Source: Candidatus Endomicrobiellum devescovinae (GTDB taxonomy: Bacteria > Elusimicrobiota > Endomicrobiia > Endomicrobiales > Endomicrobiaceae). Taken from it: a DNA stretch of 33,792 nt. Numbering within the stretch: position 1 is the first letter of the stretch; each line of letters opens with the position of its first letter. The position numbers and the translations under genes are program-made. Location of the stretch: NCBI GenBank assembly GCA_031267795.1, contig JAIRYK010000021.1, positions 1 through 33,792 of the forward strand, in the 5' to 3' direction. The notes under the pieces were generated by a model. The model searched no databases. It had not been told where the DNA came from and was given only the letters and a program-made list of their open reading frames with translations. Shown piece by piece: positions 6,587 through 33,792 of the stretch.

Positions 6587-7146
6587 ATGCAAATATTAAA
6601 AAATAAAATATTTTTCATATTATTTCTTCTGTGCCTTTCTGTAGGCAGTCTTTTCGCTAGAGAAGTAACTTTATGGACGGGGTATGCTGGAGGAAAAGAA
6701 ATAAAAAATGCATGGATTACAGGGGTAGACCTGCTAGGTTATGATATAAACAAAAACATAACATTAGGTGCGAGGGTATACACTTTAGTAGCAGATAGGA
6801 AACAATATGAAATGGTAATTGTAAGTACAACACTATTTTGCTTGGCGGCATGTATCATACTAATATAAGCAAAAATTTTGAGTTTGACACTAAATTTTTC
6901 ACAGGACTAGGATGGTATTATCGTGAGGGACAAGTTGAAGGACAAAAGGAAAAAGAGGAATATCTAACAGCTTCTCTTTTGGATTGTGACTTATCAGTTG
7001 GAGTGAGATATAATTTCACGAGAAAGTTTGGACTGGGGTTGGGCTTGGGGTATAGGCATTGTTTTGATATAAAGCATAAAACGGACGACAAATTTAATCT
7101 TTCAGGATTTCAAGCTACGTTAAACTTCTGCTTTAAATCTGCGTAG
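6587..7146 (+). pseudogene. Outer-membrane beta-barrel protein, frameshifted
   Basis: The first frame (ATG 6587) encodes a signal peptide (residues 1-24, ending SLFA) and a start of barrel-like strands (VTLWTGYAGG, NITLGARVYTLVAD), then runs out of frame near 6815-6838 into a stop at 6866-6868. The continuation lies in another frame up to 7146: LGGMYHTNISKNFEFDTKF, LSVGVRYNFTRKFGLGLG, QATLNFCF. These are alternating amphipathic strands typical of a small barrel of roughly 185 residues with a terminal strand. Together they are one gene broken by a one-base change. No specific family is recognised. It would have been an outer-membrane protein; as it stands only a truncated product is made. Confidence 0.65.
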
Positions 7147-15582: not shown

Positions 15583-16328
15583 ATAAAATAAAGATAGAAA
15601 ACTTAAGTTGTTACTATAATAAAAAATGCGTTTTAGAATCTTTAAATCTTAATGTTGTTAAAAACGAAATTTTGGGAGTTATAGGACCTGCCAACAGCGG
15701 CAAAACTACTTTTTTAAGAACGTTAAATAGAATGAATGATTTTGACATTACGTATTCAAGAAAAGGCGACGTTTATCTTGACGGCGATAATATTTTTGAC
15801 ATAGGTGCAGAGAGTTTAAGAAGAAGAGTAGGTATGCTTTTTGCCATGCCGATACCTCTTCCTATGAGTATTTACGACAACATAACTTATGCGCCAAAAC
15901 GCTTGGGTCTTGTTACAAAAAAAGCTGATTTAGATAATATGGTTGAAAGCGTTTTAAGGGATTCTTCCCTTTGGGATGAGGTAAAAGACAGGTTAGGCGC
16001 TTCGGCTATGAAGATGTCAGGAGGACAACAACAAAGGCTGTGTATTGCAAGGGTGCTTGCAATAAATCCTGAAGTTATTTTATTTGACGAACCTTGCTCG
16101 GGTCTTGATCCCATATCAACTGCAAAGGTTGAAGAGTTAATGGTAGAGCTTAAAGAAAAATATACTATAGTTCTTGTTACAAATAACGTTAAGCAAGCTT
16201 CCCGTGTTAGCGACAGAACAGCGTTTTTCCTCATGGGCAAGCTTATAGAAGTTGATAAAACCGATAAGCTTTTTGTTTCTCCGAAAGAAAAAGAGACGGA
16301 AGATTATATCACTGGACGCTTTGGATAA
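15576..16328 (+). CDS. pstB: Phosphate ABC transporter ATPase PstB
   Basis: The cytosolic ATPase of the Pst system, 250 residues. It has Walker A GPANSGKTT at 37-45, ABC signature SGGQQQRLCIARVLA at 148-162, Walker B VILFDEP at 167-173, and an H-loop region where VTNNVKQASR replaces the usual VTH, so the switch histidine position reads Asn. The Q-loop position reads Ala90 in GMLFAMPIPLP where many PstB proteins have FQ. The stretch PMSIYDNITYAP is typical of PstB. No phoU follows; lpxB starts four bases later. Function as a phosphate importer ATPase is likely despite the two substitutions. Confidence 0.93.
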   Translation: MVDKIKIENLSCYYNKKCVLESLNLNVVKNEILGVIGPANSGKTTFLRTLNRMNDFDITYSRKGDVYLDGDNIFDIGAESLRRRVGMLFAMPIPLPMSIYDNITYAPKRLGLVTKKADLDNMVESVLRDSSLWDEVKDRLGASAMKMSGGQQQRLCIARVLAINPEVILFDEPCSGLDPISTAKVEELMVELKEKYTIVLVTNNVKQASRVSDRTAFFLMGKLIEVDKTDKLFVSPKEKETEDYITGRFG

Positions 16329-16332
16329 TAAA

Positions 16333-17424
16333 ATGCCAAATTATAGAATTTTCATTTCAGCTGGAGATCTTTCTGGCGAAGTCCACGCTTCAAATCTTAT
16401 AAAAGAAATAAAAAAAATAAATCCTTCATGTTTTGTTTTATCTGCTGGCGGCAATAATCTTAAAGCCGTGTCAGATAGTTTTATTGAAGATATAGTAAAC
16501 ATAAACGCTTTTGGTTTTTTGCCAATTAAACAAGCGTTTTATTTGAGGAAAGTTTTTAAAAAAATAAAAAGGCATTTTCTGGAGAATCGTCCTGATAAAG
16601 TTATTCTTGTAGATTATTACGGGTTTCATATACATGTTGCACGGCTTGCAAAGTCAATGGGAATTCCTGTCTTCTATTATATTAGTCCTCAAGTTTGGGC
16701 GTCTCGCAGCGGCAGAATAAAAGAACTATCCAAAGTTATAAAGAAAATGCTTGTTATTTTCCCATTTGAAGAAAAACTTTATAAAGATAACAATGTTGAT
16801 GTTGTTTTTGTAGGAAATCCATTAATAGATAAAACCCCTCAAAAAACAGATTTTCAAAAACATAATTTTAATATTTCAAATCCTCCAATTATAGGCTTGT
16901 TTCCGGGAAGTCGCCAAAGCGCCATAAAACGCCATATTCCTATACTGCTTGAAACTGCAAAAATATTAAAAAAGAAAATTAACGCCAGATTTGTAATGTT
17001 TTGCGTTTCAAATAAAATTAATTTTGCACTGCCTGAATATGTAACTTTTGACGGGTCTGGAAATTTTGAAAAAAGAGTTTCCGTTGATTTTGCTATTTCT
17101 CCTTCAGGCACGGTGTGTTTAGAAAATGCTTTGATGGGAATACCTATGGCTATAGTTTACAAACTCTCGTATTTTAATTATTTTTTTATAAGGGCGCTGA
17201 TTAAAGTAAAATATATAGGAATAGTTAATATTTTAGCAGGGAAAAGTGTTGTTCCAGAATTTATACAATTTGACGCAAATCCTAAAAAAATAGCTCAGTC
17301 TGTGATGGAACAGCTAAAACCTGAAAATTACTCGTCAAAAGTTCAAGAACTCCTTTCTTTTAGAAAATCTCTAGGCTTTCCCGGAGTAAGCAAACGAGTT
17401 GCCGAAATCATTTTAAACAGCTAG
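16333..17424 (+). CDS. lpxB: Lipid-A-disaccharide synthase
   Basis: LpxB joins UDP-2,3-diacylglucosamine and lipid X to form the lipid A disaccharide at the inner membrane, so this cell makes lipid A. I start at ATG 16333 (MPNYRIFISAGDLSGEVH), giving 363 residues. A longer frame upstream overlaps pstB and is not needed. Motifs: AGDLSGEVHA near the start, YYISPQVWAS, FPFEEKLY, VGNPLID, GLFPGSRQSAIKRH and the nucleotide-sugar site SPSGTVCLENALMGIPM, ending with an amphipathic helix. It is the last gene of the guaA-pst run. Confidence 0.94.
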   Translation: MPNYRIFISAGDLSGEVHASNLIKEIKKINPSCFVLSAGGNNLKAVSDSFIEDIVNINAFGFLPIKQAFYLRKVFKKIKRHFLENRPDKVILVDYYGFHIHVARLAKSMGIPVFYYISPQVWASRSGRIKELSKVIKKMLVIFPFEEKLYKDNNVDVVFVGNPLIDKTPQKTDFQKHNFNISNPPIIGLFPGSRQSAIKRHIPILLETAKILKKKINARFVMFCVSNKINFALPEYVTFDGSGNFEKRVSVDFAISPSGTVCLENALMGIPMAIVYKLSYFNYFFIRALIKVKYIGIVNILAGKSVVPEFIQFDANPKKIAQSVMEQLKPENYSSKVQELLSFRKSLGFPGVSKRVAEIILNS

Positions 17425-17498
17425 TGCAGACAAATAATTTTTAAAGTGAATAACTAGATAAAAGAGAAGGACAAAAAAAACGAGAGAGGTGTTTGAGT

Positions 17499-18446
17499 AT
17501 GAGTATTGTGAATAAAAATGAAATTACAACTACAGTAGCTACAATAAATAGTTTTCCACCTGAAGAAAATAAATGTACACAAGGTGGAGTTGTATATTTC
17601 TGTGAAAGCCATAATAAAAGCGTTTATGAGAGATATTATATTCGTAGTACATCCGATTTACTGCATAGGTATCAAATGGAGTTGAGTGAATATGAAAAAT
17701 ATGAACTTCGTACAGGATATTTAAGCAGGTGGAATTATATGCCCAAAGATTTTGAGGAAATGTCTTGTGAAGAGATAGAAGAAGCAAATAAAAAGGGATA
17801 TGAAGAAGAAAATGAATGGTTAAAGAGATGCGAACCAGACTTGCCAAGAGCATTCATTCCTAAAGACTGGAAAGATTGTATTAGCGAGAAAGAAAATCCT
17901 TATTATCAGCAATGTAAAGACTTTATAAATCAAGAGTTAGAAAAAAATGAAATTTTTAATGACGCTTTTAAAAAAAGCGTCAATGCTTATGCTGAAAAGC
18001 ACCACTCAAATCGTAATAATGGTTGGAAGTATGTGTTGGAAGAAGTTGCTTGGGTATTTAGTTTGCCTTTGGTACACCCCAATAAGCATATATATTTAAT
18101 TCATGTTGGGAAAGATAATCCCGCAATAAAAGAGCTGTTTCATGTTTTTCCGAATTTCAATAAAACTGTAAAGTGGTTATCTCCTCGTCTTAGAGAATTT
18201 ACTTTTAAAAATAATGCTGATTTTTTAATGTACTATAACGCAAATCGTAATGTAGGAGCTTCTTATGCTATTAATAACAGAAGTATTGTTGATCCGTTTA
18301 TGAGAACTGTTATTGATAAAAATCATTCATCTTTGGAAATTCAATCTGTAGAAAAGACTTTATTACAAAGTATTATTGAAAAACTTCCCTGCCATGTATA
18401 TTGGCTAAATCGCGAAGAGAAGCCTGAATCAGAAGCCAAGCGCTAA
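17499..18446 (+). CDS. Candidate tRNA-dependent cyclodipeptide synthase (divergent)
   Basis: Such synthases divert two aminoacyl-tRNAs to make a cyclic dipeptide. I start at ATG 17499, nine bases after AGAGAGG (a TTG lies two codons earlier), giving 315 residues. The fit rests on order and spacing of motifs. A strand GGVVYFCES ends in Ser37 with Ser41 four on, like the nucleophile motif. SDLLHRYQ (52-59) resembles DSLxRH. NEWLKR and IPKDW (about 105-124) follow. KYVLEEVAW carries Tyr178 and Glu182, the Tyr-x3-Glu catalytic pair of AlbC. HIYLIHVGKDNPAI matches the late VYP strand only loosely. The helix after Ser37 is about 20 residues shorter than usual, and about 75 extra residues follow. 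No membrane segment or tailoring enzyme is nearby. It lies between lpxB and lysA. Moderate confidence, from pattern memory. Confidence 0.5.
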   Translation: MSIVNKNEITTTVATINSFPPEENKCTQGGVVYFCESHNKSVYERYYIRSTSDLLHRYQMELSEYEKYELRTGYLSRWNYMPKDFEEMSCEEIEEANKKGYEEENEWLKRCEPDLPRAFIPKDWKDCISEKENPYYQQCKDFINQELEKNEIFNDAFKKSVNAYAEKHHSNRNNGWKYVLEEVAWVFSLPLVHPNKHIYLIHVGKDNPAIKELFHVFPNFNKTVKWLSPRLREFTFKNNADFLMYYNANRNVGASYAINNRSIVDPFMRTVIDKNHSSLEIQSVEKTLLQSIIEKLPCHVYWLNREEKPESEAKR

Positions 18447-18530: not shown

Positions 18531-19766
18531 ATGCTTGAGTTTAGAAAGGGTGATTTATATATTGAAAATGTAAAACTTTCCGATATAGCTAAAGAGTATG
18601 GAACAAGCACATACGTATATTCAAAACAACAGATAGTAAACAATTTTGAAAATTATAAAAAAGCTATGGCTTTAAGAGACGGGCTTATTTGTTTTGCTTG
18701 TAAGACAAATTCTAGTGGAGCTATTTTAAAGATTCTCGTAAGTCTAGGGGCAGGAGCAGACACTACGTCGGGCGGTGAGATTTACAGATGTTTAAAAGCA
18801 GGCTTTAATCCGTCAAAGATAGTTTACGCTGGCGTAGGCAAAACTGCTGAAGAAATAGAATACGCTTTAAAAAGTAAAATTTTTATGCTTAATGTTGAGT
18901 CTTTTGAAGAGCTTGACGTTATAGATAAAATAGCTGGCAAACTGAAGATAAAGGCAAACATTGCTTTTAGAATAAATCCTTATGTAAATCCAGATACGCA
19001 TTCTTACATAGTAACTGGTAAAAAAGGTACTAAGTTTGGCATACCTTATGAAGATGCTGTAAAAGCATATTTAACTGCAAAGAAAAAGAAAAATATAAGC
19101 GTTGTCGGCATACATTCCCACATAGGCTCGCAAATTCTTGAAGTTGAGCCATTTGTTGTTGCTGCTAAAAGAATAAAGAAGATAGTTGACAAAGTTGAAA
19201 GGCATGGCATGCGGATTTCGTATATAGACTGCGGTGGCGGTCTTGGTATTAAATATGAGAAAGGTGAAAAAGTTCCTTCTCCAAAACGTCTTATGTCTGA
19301 AATTTTTTCTGTTTTTGATAAAGATAAAAAGTTTATAGTTGAGCCGGGTCGTTCAATAATCGGCGATGCAGGACATCTCTTGGCAAAAGTTTTGTATAGA
19401 AAAATGTCAGGAGGAAAAAGCTTTCTTATAACCGACGCAGGAATGAACGATTTGATAAGACCAACTTTATACGACGCTTATCATGAAATAGTTCCTGTCA
19501 AAAAAACTAACGCTAAAAAAGTTAGAAGCGACGTAGTTGGACCTATATGTGAAAGCGGAGACTTTATGGGCAAAGATAGAATGCTTCCAATAGTTGAGCA
19601 AGGCGAATATTTGTTAGTGACTTGCGCAGGCGCTTACGGTACCGCTATGTCTTCGGAATATAATTCCAGACCTTCGCTTGCCGAAGTATTAGTTGATGGT
19701 AAACAGACAAAGCTAATAAGGAAAAGAGCAAGCTATAAAGATTTGATGCTCAATGAAATTTTATAA
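18531..19766 (+). CDS. lysA: Diaminopimelate decarboxylase
   Basis: LysA decarboxylates meso-diaminopimelate to lysine with PLP. I start at ATG 18531, five bases after GAGAGG; an upstream extension adds nothing family-like. The 411-residue protein has the PLP lysine Lys58 in FACKTN, DTTSGGEIYRCLKAG, GIHSHIGSQI, the phosphate loop CGGGLG (234-239), EPGRS (271-275), and CESGDFMGKDR with Cys340/Glu341. It ends in a YGTAMSSEYNSRP block. All expected active-site residues are present. It heads the dap cluster, with dapF starting directly after its stop. Confidence 0.97.
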   Translation: MLEFRKGDLYIENVKLSDIAKEYGTSTYVYSKQQIVNNFENYKKAMALRDGLICFACKTNSSGAILKILVSLGAGADTTSGGEIYRCLKAGFNPSKIVYAGVGKTAEEIEYALKSKIFMLNVESFEELDVIDKIAGKLKIKANIAFRINPYVNPDTHSYIVTGKKGTKFGIPYEDAVKAYLTAKKKKNISVVGIHSHIGSQILEVEPFVVAAKRIKKIVDKVERHGMRISYIDCGGGLGIKYEKGEKVPSPKRLMSEIFSVFDKDKKFIVEPGRSIIGDAGHLLAKVLYRKMSGGKSFLITDAGMNDLIRPTLYDAYHEIVPVKKTNAKKVRSDVVGPICESGDFMGKDRMLPIVEQGEYLLVTCAGAYGTAMSSEYNSRPSLAEVLVDGKQTKLIRKRASYKDLMLNEIL

Positions 19767-23801: not shown

Positions 23802-24662
23802 CTAAGATATCCCAAACAATCTAAATATAAGGTTTCTATTTTCACCTGCCTGTTCCTCTTCTTGCATTTGTGTTAAAGTAGGAGCTAATAATTGTTGACG
23901 TAAAGGAGGAATATTTGGTGTCTCTATTAGTATCTGTGTCTGCATTTGTGTCGCTGTTTGTAGTCTATCCATGAAAGCTCTCTGGACTCTTCTATTTCTT
24001 TCTCTTTCTATTGCATCCTCATCATATTGATGGAGCTGATTCTGAGTGTAGTCAGCTACGACTGTTGGGTTCTCGCCATCAAAAACAATAGTACCTGGAA
24101 GCATTAGTTCCATATTTATTAGATAGTAGTTTAGTGTTTCTCTTTCTTGGAATCTATTATATCTTGCTTCATGTCCTATTATTTGCCCTAGACGTCTTGC
24201 TCGTTCTAATAATAAAGTATTAATAACGCCAAACTCACCGTATAGTTCCATTGCAAGTGCTCTTGCTCTATTTCTAACATTTTGTATTGCTGTGATTGCT
24301 CTGTGTCCACCTATTATCTCTCGTTGTCCGTCAGGACCAATAAATGGCTGTAAAAATATTTCTTCTTCTTCCTCTACTGGTATTTGCGTAAATGTTGGAG
24401 GAAAAACTACAGTATAATTGGGTCCTAACTCATTAGGTCTTAAGTTTTCTGTGTGCCTTCTTGTTGTTCGTATTCTGGTTATGACGTCATTAGCCCATCC
24501 TACTGCTAATCTTTCAACTTGTCCTAGTCCGTTTCTTAGGTCTTCTATAGCTCTTAGTATTTCTTGTTCCGTATTTACAATATTTTGTATTGCTGTAATT
24601 GCTCTTTGTCCGCCAAATCTTTCTATGTCTTGGTTTTGTGTAATTACTCTGAATGTCCGCAT
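23802..24662 (-). CDS. C-terminal portion of a secreted repeat protein, split by a stop
   Basis: The 286-residue frame holds two related modules: GGQRAITAIQNIVNTEQEIL near residue 18 and GGHRAITAIQNVRNRARALA near residue 118, each followed by a long charged helix-rich part and then a proline/hydrophobic stretch (ELGPNYTVVFPP; MLPGTIVFDGENP). It is rich in Q, E and R and has no signal peptide. The frame is the same as that of the gene at 24678-25094, separated by one TAA and five codons (aga aat gaa cga gta), and no ribosome site precedes ATG 24662. I therefore read it as the downstream part of one interrupted gene. No family recognised; a secreted host-interaction role is only a guess. Confidence 0.6.
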   Translation of the reverse strand: MRTFRVITQNQDIERFGGQRAITAIQNIVNTEQEILRAIEDLRNGLGQVERLAVGWANDVITRIRTTRRHTENLRPNELGPNYTVVFPPTFTQIPVEEEEEIFLQPFIGPDGQREIIGGHRAITAIQNVRNRARALAMELYGEFGVINTLLLERARRLGQIIGHEARYNRFQERETLNYYLINMELMLPGTIVFDGENPTVVADYTQNQLHQYDEDAIERERNRRVQRAFMDRLQTATQMQTQILIETPNIPPLRQQLLAPTLTQMQEEEQAGENRNLIFRLFGIS

Positions 24663-24677
24663 TACTCGTTCATTTCT

Positions 24678-25094
24678 TTATTCCCCCTCTTCTTCTGCTA
24701 TTAGCCCTTCTGCTGTTGTTGTTACCATTAATCCCATTTGTTCTAACTGCGTCCATGTCCATCTGAGATTATGATATGGACCATCAGGCAAAAGTTCTCC
24801 GTTTAAGCCACCTCCATAATTTATTAAAAAGTCTGCTACCATCTCTTCTACGTAGTGTAGTACCTGCCTCATTGTTCCCTGTACTTCTTGTTGTATATCT
24901 GCAATATGTATTCTCTGTTCATCTTGATGGTTATGTAGCAAATGATCTAATTCTTCTTGTGGTTGTACCTCATATTCTAACTCTTCCTCTGGATACCCAT
25001 GAGGAGTATCCTCTGCCACATGTGGTCTGGGAAGTTGTACTGCACTGCATTCTGCTACCAAAAAAACACTAATAATAAATAATAGTAGTTTCAT
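24678..25094 (-). CDS. N-terminal portion of a secreted repeat protein, split by a stop
   Basis: The 138-residue frame begins with a clear Sec signal peptide (MKLLLFIISVFLVAECSAV). A strong AAGGAGAG ribosome site lies before ATG 25094. The rest is acidic and Q/H-rich (YPEEELEYEVQPQEELDHLL), then a helix with ADIQQEVQGTMRQVLHYVEE and a segment LLPDGPYHNLRWTW that resembles the module ends in the following frame. It ends AEEEGE-TAA, and the same frame then continues as 23802-24662. It may yield a short exported protein, or be the stub of a 430-codon gene inactivated by a nonsense mutation. The family is unknown. Confidence 0.65.
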   Translation of the reverse strand: MKLLLFIISVFLVAECSAVQLPRPHVAEDTPHGYPEEELEYEVQPQEELDHLLHNHQDEQRIHIADIQQEVQGTMRQVLHYVEEMVADFLINYGGGLNGELLPDGPYHNLRWTWTQLEQMGLMVTTTAEGLIAEEEGE

Positions 25095-32828: not shown

Positions 32829-33792
32829 ATGTATAAGGTTATAAAGTTTCTATTGTTTACAATATTTATTTGCTGTTTGTTTGGCAAAACTAATGCTACA
32901 AATTTAACACAGCCTAGCAGCGATTCGTTCAATTTAAAAAGATTTCATGATGTTCAAACAGGAGAGCTATTAGGACGTGTTGAACGCGAATTGCAAGCAG
33001 GAAATAAGACTGGTCATTGGATTTGGTATATTTTCCCACAGTTTAAAGGATTGGGGACAAGCCCCCAAAGTCTCCAGTATAGTATCAAGTCTTTGGATGA
33101 AGCAAAAGCATATTTAGCCGATTCTGTCTTACATAACAATTTAATACATCACACTCAGCTCGTTCTTGTGCACAAAGATTCAAAACCTTTGCAAACGATA
33201 TTTGGAACTTCTCTTGATGCTGCAAAGTTTATATCTTCAATGACTCTATTCAATGTTGCAGAACAATCAGAACAACTATTCGTTGATGCGTTAAACTATT
33301 TTAACAGCGGTAATTGTTGCCAAAAAACACTAAAACTTCTAGCTTCAGAGGAAAAAGCACCAGATGCAGATGGAGATAGCGCAAAAGGAAAGCCAGAAGA
33401 GTCAATAAGGATAGAGTTTAGTCCTAGTGGAGAATGGCATAGTGAGACGACGCTAGAATCAAAAAGTAAAGAAAATCCAGAAGCAAAGGATATAAATGTA
33501 GAAGAGGCAAAAGGAAGCGAAGAATCATCAGAAGGAACAGAATACAGGGTAGTAGATCCAAACCCAAAAGAAGAAGCAAAAGAGACAGACAGGTATAAGG
33601 TGAAAACTCGTAGAAATGTAGAAAGAGAGAGAAAGAAGGAAGAAAAAGGAAGGAGTGAAGAGACAACTAAAACAGAAGATACAAGTAAGCCAGTAACAGA
33701 TGAAAAAGCACAAGATGGAGAAGATACAAAAGCAAGTGATTCAAAAGGAACATCTTTACCAAGACCAAAGGCAGAAGAGCTAAAGGTAGAGG
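32829..33792 (+). CDS. Exported DUF1810-domain protein with long charged tail, cut by window end
   Basis: ATG 32829 opens a frame that stays open to the window edge (321 codons seen). Residues about 1-24 form a Sec-type signal peptide (IKFLLFTIFICCLFGKTNA). Residues about 34-172 are a complete DUF1810 domain: FNLKRFHDVQ, ELQAGNKTGHWIWYIFPQFK, GLGTSPQSLQYSIKSLDEAKAYL, DSVLHNNLI and a closing DALNYF region. DUF1810 proteins are normally small cytosolic proteins of unknown function, often mislabelled calpastatin. From about 173 the chain becomes an E/K/S/T/D-rich, low-complexity, probably disordered tail with no hydrophobic segment. Signal peptide plus tail is unusual. No clear ribosome site precedes the start. 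Function unknown. Confidence 0.85.
   Translation, partial: MYKVIKFLLFTIFICCLFGKTNATNLTQPSSDSFNLKRFHDVQTGELLGRVERELQAGNKTGHWIWYIFPQFKGLGTSPQSLQYSIKSLDEAKAYLADSVLHNNLIHHTQLVLVHKDSKPLQTIFGTSLDAAKFISSMTLFNVAEQSEQLFVDALNYFNSGNCCQKTLKLLASEEKAPDADGDSAKGKPEESIRIEFSPSGEWHSETTLESKSKENPEAKDINVEEAKGSEESSEGTEYRVVDPNPKEEAKETDRYKVKTRRNVERERKKEEKGRSEETTKTEDTSKPVTDEKAQDGEDTKASDSKGTSLPRPKAEELKVE

Follow-up and report, generated by a model that had tools for sequence, protein, structure and literature searches.

A predicted cyclodipeptide synthase-like domain, fused to PAS-kinases in its relatives, and a putatively truncated copy in Candidatus Endomicrobiellum devescovinae

The window, that is the whole stretch of 33,792 nucleotides analysed here, is the complete contig C17 of a Candidatus Endomicrobiellum devescovinae genome (G000) of 1.28 Mb in 24 contigs. 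On its plus strand, positions 17499-18446 hold an open reading frame (ORF) of 315 amino acids counted from ATG; an alternative TTG start at 17493 would lengthen it by two residues. The flanking genes are used as locus markers, and from their sequences the products are presumably LpxB-like upstream and LysA-like downstream. The original prediction had described the ORF as a possible divergent cyclodipeptide synthase (CDPS), and the elements on which it relied, namely Ser37, Ser41, a DLLHRY segment, WL at residues 107-108, PKDW, YVLEEVAW and His202-Val203, are, like the ORF itself, all found where it had placed them. The features of the locus, with the evidence for each, are as follows.

16252-17424 (+): upstream neighbour, presumably lpxB-like, locus marker (synteny)
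17499-18446 (+): ORF comprising the CDPS-like domain, a linker, the start of PAS and a kinase C-terminal tail (ORF, relatives)
17523-18302 (+): CDPS-like domain, residues about 9-268, predicted to be Rossmann-type (AF2, Foldseek, conservation)
17607-17609 (+): Ser37 codon, directly after strand 30-36 (invariant in 29/29 members, DSSP)
17760-17834 (+): helix region, residues 88-112 (net charge compared with genuine CDPS)
18030-18044 (+): Tyr178 to Glu182, YVLEE (invariant in 29/29, hhalign against eight distant CDPS)
18102-18104 (+): His202 codon, at the place of the cyclising Tyr202 of CDPS (His in 29/29 versus Tyr in 15/15)
18345-18413 (+): end of the linker and first PAS residues, ending in HVYWLNR (runs on into PAS in intact relatives)
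18414-18446 (+): tail EEKPESEAKR and stop codon, aligned as a kinase C-terminus (kinase 3' ends of genomes G009 and G023)
18531-19766 (+): downstream neighbour, presumably lysA-like, locus marker (synteny)

Elsewhere in the window, an ORF cut by the contig end at 32829-33792 (+) contains a DUF1810 domain (E 3e-40), a start that by eye resembles a signal peptide, and a long charged C-terminal region. Two neighbouring ORFs of 286 and 138 aa at 23802-25094 (-), without significant Pfam relatives, sit where most of the coding is on the plus strand, and the 138-aa ORF has, by eye, a start like that of a secreted protein. At 6587-7146 (+), an apparent frameshift divides an outer-membrane beta-barrel-like gene, whose best Pfam score is just under the cut-off, into two ORFs (93 and 102 aa).

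Searches with the window ORF alone returned no match in NCBIfam and only noise in Pfam (AntA, E 0.081) and in a phmmer search of PDB. With an alignment of 29 family members, an hmmsearch of PDB gave two weak matches, to designed or unrelated helical proteins, and no CDPS. The CDPS family PF16715 had been proposed as a profile check of the original prediction, and no match over its cut-off (27 bits) was obtained from any of the 29 members; CDPS was also absent from the best 25 of the 32 Pfam families matched by these members at E<=10, the lower-ranked families scoring less than the last of those 25. Judged by family profile, the window gene is not a CDPS.

Profile-profile alignment with hhalign gave modest support for a CDPS kinship. 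Against 15 diverse CDPS, the family scored 33.1 (E 6e-4, probability 28%) over a short aligned part around residues 120-165, with control maxima of 25.4 for 100 column shuffles, 19.7 for 100 block shuffles and 14.0 for the reversed profile. Against eight distant CDPS alone the score was 27.7 (E 0.005; shuffle maxima 22.5 and 24.7), and Tyr178 and Glu182 fell on the CDPS Tyr and Glu in this alignment. As a positive control, seven CDPS (six from the window's genus and one from Holosporales, L088) matched the same eight distant CDPS with E 6e-45. The six genus CDPS alone gave no support (E 0.19 and 0.18) and the set of seven gave E 0.081, so that the profile likeness is informative only with diverse CDPS.

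The AF2 model of the window domain, computed with 29 sequences, had a pLDDT of 85.9 and a pTM of 0.78. In a Foldseek comparison with PDB its best 40 rows were all CDPS chains with XYP-type enzymes leading (best match E 5.5e-8, TM on target 0.68, rmsd 4.8), and the next matches after the CDPS rows were TyrRS. A second AF2 prediction, with the alphaproteobacterial member L069 (40% identical) placed first in the same sequence set, had a pLDDT of 89.2, and its Foldseek rows 1-34 were again all CDPS (E 1.4e-8, TM on target up to 0.75). Both models predict a class Ic synthetase-like Rossmann fold of the CDPS type for the domain. The comparison of predicted with solved structures thus bore out the proposed CDPS fold and its nearness to the XYP type, a true remote similarity that the original prediction had seen from sequence alone. 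With the XYP-type enzymes (5OCD from Fluoribacter dumoffii, 9I5M/5MLQ from Nocardia brasiliensis and 5MLP from Rickettsiella grylli) the window domain shares, besides the predicted fold, a Ser after a strand, a Tyr and a Glu four apart in a helix, and the 24 residues from this Tyr to position 202, a spacing that was checked on 15 other CDPS. In contrast to these enzymes, it shows only about 15% identity to them, stays below the Pfam cut-off, carries His in place of Tyr202, and has relatives that are fused to a PAS-kinase.

Ser37, Tyr178 and Glu182, which were matched to the catalytic residues of CDPS by secondary structure, spacing and profile alignment, are invariant in 29/29 aligned members; by eye, a partial copy outside this alignment (L008) has Lys at the place of Glu182. 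The Ser-to-Tyr spacing is 139 or 141 in 27 of the 29 members (136 and 129 in the other two) and 139-144 in 15 genuine CDPS, and the distance from Tyr178 to position 202 is 24 residues in all 29 and in all 15. This position is His in 29/29 members and Tyr in 15/15 genuine CDPS. By position, Tyr178-x3-Glu182 corresponds to the CDPS catalytic pair, as had been proposed, and the late Tyr-Pro position does read His-Val. From the proposed serine pair Ser37 was retained, whereas Ser41 is not conserved (Ser in 3/29). In NYH-type CDPS, a basic helix binds tRNA. The helix at residues 88-112 has a net charge of -6 to +1 in the 29 members versus +4 to +6 in six genuine CDPS, the helices being matched by eye. 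PMC7566563 reports almost strict conservation of Ser37, Tyr178, Glu182 and Tyr202 among active CDPS, and states that XYP-type enzymes bind tRNA through other strands, which makes the charge argument weaker for this type. Given the replacement of Tyr202 by His and a basic helix that is apparently not kept, the synthase reaction appears to have been lost and the pocket kept as that of a sensor. We read the family domain as a CDPS-derived ligand sensor and not as an enzyme.

Genome G000 has paralogues of the window domain with 61% identity on contig C4 and 46% on C20, as well as a split copy on C23, and in the paralogue reading frames the window-type domain forms the N-terminal part of longer proteins, which continue into PAS and kinase. 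Full-length members comprise 755-802 aa. PAS_4 and HATPase_c were over the Pfam cut-off in all five full-length relatives scanned (L014, L007, L069, L058 and L077). HisKA was not listed by Pfam in these five proteins, and an H-box is visible by eye; two of them gave Response_reg scores of 17.5 and 20.5 bits, under the 30-bit cut-off, for a receiver domain. PAS sensor histidine kinases with enzyme-derived input domains have an N-terminal input domain followed by PAS and HATPase_c, and the family shares this order; its CDPS-type input sets it apart, and we know of no other PAS sensor histidine kinase with such an input. The open-licence literature searched, including word searches of PMC5816076, PMC5767969, PMC11257099 and PMC13220807, yielded no CDPS-type sensor domain on a kinase, and the word cyclodipeptide is absent from PMC11257099. 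In the CDPS fusions described in PMC5816076, the CDPS moiety is N-terminal in a larger protein, as in the family, but the partners are tailoring or transport ones, whereas the family's partner is a sensor kinase.

A scan of genome_contigs with two short peptide patterns, which remoter kin may escape, detected 35 loci titled Endomicrobium, Endomicrobiellum, Holosporales, Holosporaceae or Alphaproteobacteria, the last title belonging to two records (PG1894_49 and a roe deer rumen bin). Most of the Holosporales bins probably stem from termite guts, since they share isolate codes with Endomicrobiellum bins. The intracellular lifestyle invoked in the original prediction agrees with a genus of endosymbionts, and Endomicrobia include endosymbionts of termite gut flagellates (PMC11257099). 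Family members were present in 16 of 41 genomes of the window's genus, in none of the 24 relatives, of 59 searched, that lie outside this genus, and in 9 of 49 genomes of the order of one Holosporaceae member. When 31 rows were placed in a tree, the two lineages required 5 label changes compared with 10.6 in shuffles, and also 5 when well supported branches alone are used. From these few label changes, family genes seem to have been transferred between Elusimicrobiota and Alphaproteobacteria, and more than once. A viral origin of the family was also considered and rejected, as no relative was found in viral_contigs.

The genuine CDPS of genome G000 is not the window ORF but a separate gene on a different contig (L038, G000:C23:200176-200811; PF16715 E 2e-45, 155 bits). 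It keeps Tyr202 and the basic helix and lies 5' of a PAS-PAS-HATPase ORF. It shares with the window gene the organism and the partner domains (PAS, HATPase), but differs in being a separate gene that reaches PF16715. Two genus CDPS scanned scored 155 and 171 bits; matches over the PF16715 cut-off, some of them remnants, occur in 12 of the 41 genus genomes, and all 12 genomes over the cut-off in a 247-genome sample of the phylum belong to this genus. A PAS-containing ORF lies directly 3' on the same strand in all six intact CDPS loci examined (L033-L038), and Pfam identified PAS and HATPase in 4/4 downstream ORFs scanned (L038, L033, L034 and L036), the available L035 and L037 stretches ending before the HATPase. 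In Holosporales, L088 has a CDPS of 166 bits in frame with 51 residues that are 67% identical to the PAS start, a short piece cut by the contig end and not called by Pfam. Together with the fused kinases, these loci show that a CDPS beside a kinase, a CDPS in frame with PAS and a diverged fusion all exist; the diverged domain could have come from a genus or Holosporales CDPS or from an XYP-type CDPS.

A CDPS over the cut-off was found in one of 11 genomes reached via Holosporales or other alphaproteobacterial loci, and in 0 of 398 genomes of a Pseudomonadota sample in which control genomes were likewise without a match. Among the 41 genus genomes, with remnants counted and relatedness uncorrected, 16 have the family, 12 have CDPS and 10 have both (Fisher p 3e-4); restricted to the 18 genomes that reach 1.0 Mb and 85% completeness, the test gives p 0.043, relatedness again uncorrected. 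In genome G013, a CDPS remnant with stops (C22, 67352-67597; L043, L075) sits immediately 3' of an intact fused kinase and has the same orientation. A gene for a PQ-loop membrane protein was observed in both phyla: it directly precedes four fused kinases and the L088 CDPS on their 5' side, and it also occurs close to one CDPS remnant. PF04193 was over the cut-off in all three small PQ-loop proteins scanned, and this protein may be a transporter partner of the CDPS/kinase system. The PQ-loop genes are located as follows.

L002, 1793-2071 (-): PQ-loop gene
L067, 4653-4928 (+): PQ-loop gene
L069, 4668-4922 (+): PQ-loop gene
L054, 1973-2247 (+): PQ-loop gene in two pieces
L088, 1191-1472 (+): PQ-loop gene
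L042, 786-1067 (-): PQ-loop gene

The window ORF lacks the PAS and HATPase_c domains; all that is left is the beginning of PAS and the ten final residues of the kinase. Its last ten codons and stop align with the kinase C-termini of G009 and G023. G009 has a copy of 77% identity next after lpxB that stays open as far as its contig reaches, and a second G009 contig has the 3' end of a kinase in front of lysA; we infer that the two pieces are one gene. G023, too, has a kinase 3' end upstream of lysA. Since the ten-codon tail aligns with kinase ends located before lysA, the window ORF is best read, by comparison with these copies, as a kinase after an in-frame internal deletion of about 440-490 codons, a size estimated against the full-length members of 755-802 aa. 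The C-terminal extension noted in the original prediction is real: a linker helix is followed by the beginning of PAS and then by the ten kinase C-terminal residues. The idea of an intact small-molecule gene kept by a shrinking genome gives way to that of a sensor kinase whose signalling half is apparently gone.

Among the 30 lysA loci of the genus examined, lpxB lies within the covered stretch in five (the window, G184, G011, G005 and G013). In the latter four, lpxB and lysA are adjacent without the family gene, with a short kinase-like scar between them, by eye, in G184 and possibly in G011. Next to lpxB in G015 lies a degenerate copy. We also weighed whether the gene had been inserted into an old lpxB-lysA junction and rejected this, as the G009 and G023 kinases and the scar in G184 (possibly also G011) fit ancestral presence with repeated loss better. 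A Holosporaceae copy of 290 aa (L071, 4926-5798 (+)), close to a contig end, also stops before PAS; it may likewise be a truncated sensor domain, or else result from a frameshift. Misassembly at the deletion junction of the window copy is a possible alternative to a true deletion: the G009 kinase spans two contigs and several G000 kinase copies are at contig ends, family-type kinase matches being found at or near the ends of C1, C4, C10, C14, C19, C20 and C22. This suggests that near-repeats broke the G000 assembly at kinase copies, and they could hide or distort copies in this genome.

Building on the predicted fold, the relatives with their architecture and the residue pattern, all obtained by computation, we consider it likely that the window ORF is the CDPS-like sensor half of a PAS-kinase, a ligand binder of CDPS descent whose kinase was deleted here. 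The domain order of the family would be [CDPS-like domain]-PAS-HATPase, frequently closed by a receiver-like end, and its N-terminal domain would descend from a cyclodipeptide synthase, with the pocket and three of the four catalytic residues kept. As for the ligand, the sensing and the present function of the truncated copy, the proposal is that the domain would most likely bind a small ligand, which could be a cyclodipeptide, a dipeptide, an amino acid or an aminoacyl group, and that the signal would pass through PAS to the kinase without any product being made. At the lpxB-lysA locus, an in-frame internal deletion would have removed PAS and kinase and left the sensor domain alone, so that the window copy would now be a remnant or a free ligand-binding protein.

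The invariance of Ser37, Tyr178 and Glu182 in all 29 members and the XYP-type CDPS as nearest folds could also mean that the domain is a divergent but active cyclodipeptide or dipeptide synthase, in which His202 replaces the role of Tyr202 and the fused kinase reads its own product; in L088 the frame of a genuine CDPS continues into a PAS start, and CDPS fused to other domains are known (PMC5816076). We regard an active synthase as unlikely, because Tyr202, almost strictly conserved in active CDPS according to PMC7566563, is His in 29/29, the helix matched to the basic one of the compared CDPS is mostly acidic in the family, and no member reaches PF16715. On the same three grounds, the CDPS enzyme identity originally proposed was not sustained. 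Very unlikely, in our view, is a starvation sensor derived from an aminoacyl-tRNA-using fold, which would sense charged tRNA or a free amino acid; the class Ic synthetase fold with TyrRS next in Foldseek and the retained catalytic Ser, Tyr and Glu agree with it, but the family seems to have lost the basic helix present in the compared CDPS.

Whether the window copy is a decaying, functionless pseudogene, a view compatible with the sensor-kinase reading of the family, is in our estimate evenly balanced. Its PAS and kinase are missing, other family copies are broken in G000 and the genus, and the locus is empty or degenerate in relatives. Against this, the frame is open with all alignment-invariant residues kept, and dN/dS relative to the G009 copy is 0.20-0.27, although a very recent deletion would give equal figures. 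With three outgroups, window-specific changes are fewer than G009-specific ones (12 versus 25, 11 versus 25 and 7 versus 28), and here too a very recent deletion would look alike. No relaxed selection was seen in the window copy, which fits a dead remnant poorly; a recent deletion and a retained stand-alone binding protein both fit.

If the sensor-kinase reading is correct, a biosynthetic enzyme would have been turned into a receptor in genomes that still hold the enzyme beside a related kinase. A wider and rather doubtful suggestion is a signalling circuit in intracellular bacteria of gut protists, in which CDPS genes coupled to PAS kinases make a signal, kinases with a repurposed CDPS read it, and the receptors cross phyla. 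Such a circuit could let unrelated symbionts pick up one another's signals, and this would extend to genomes with the receptor and no detected CDPS. The system would have moved between phyla and been lost piece by piece in reducing genomes, and the findings make testable a possible role of cyclic dipeptides as signals in endosymbionts of gut flagellates. The main object of interest is the family, of which the window copy would be a broken or trimmed representative.
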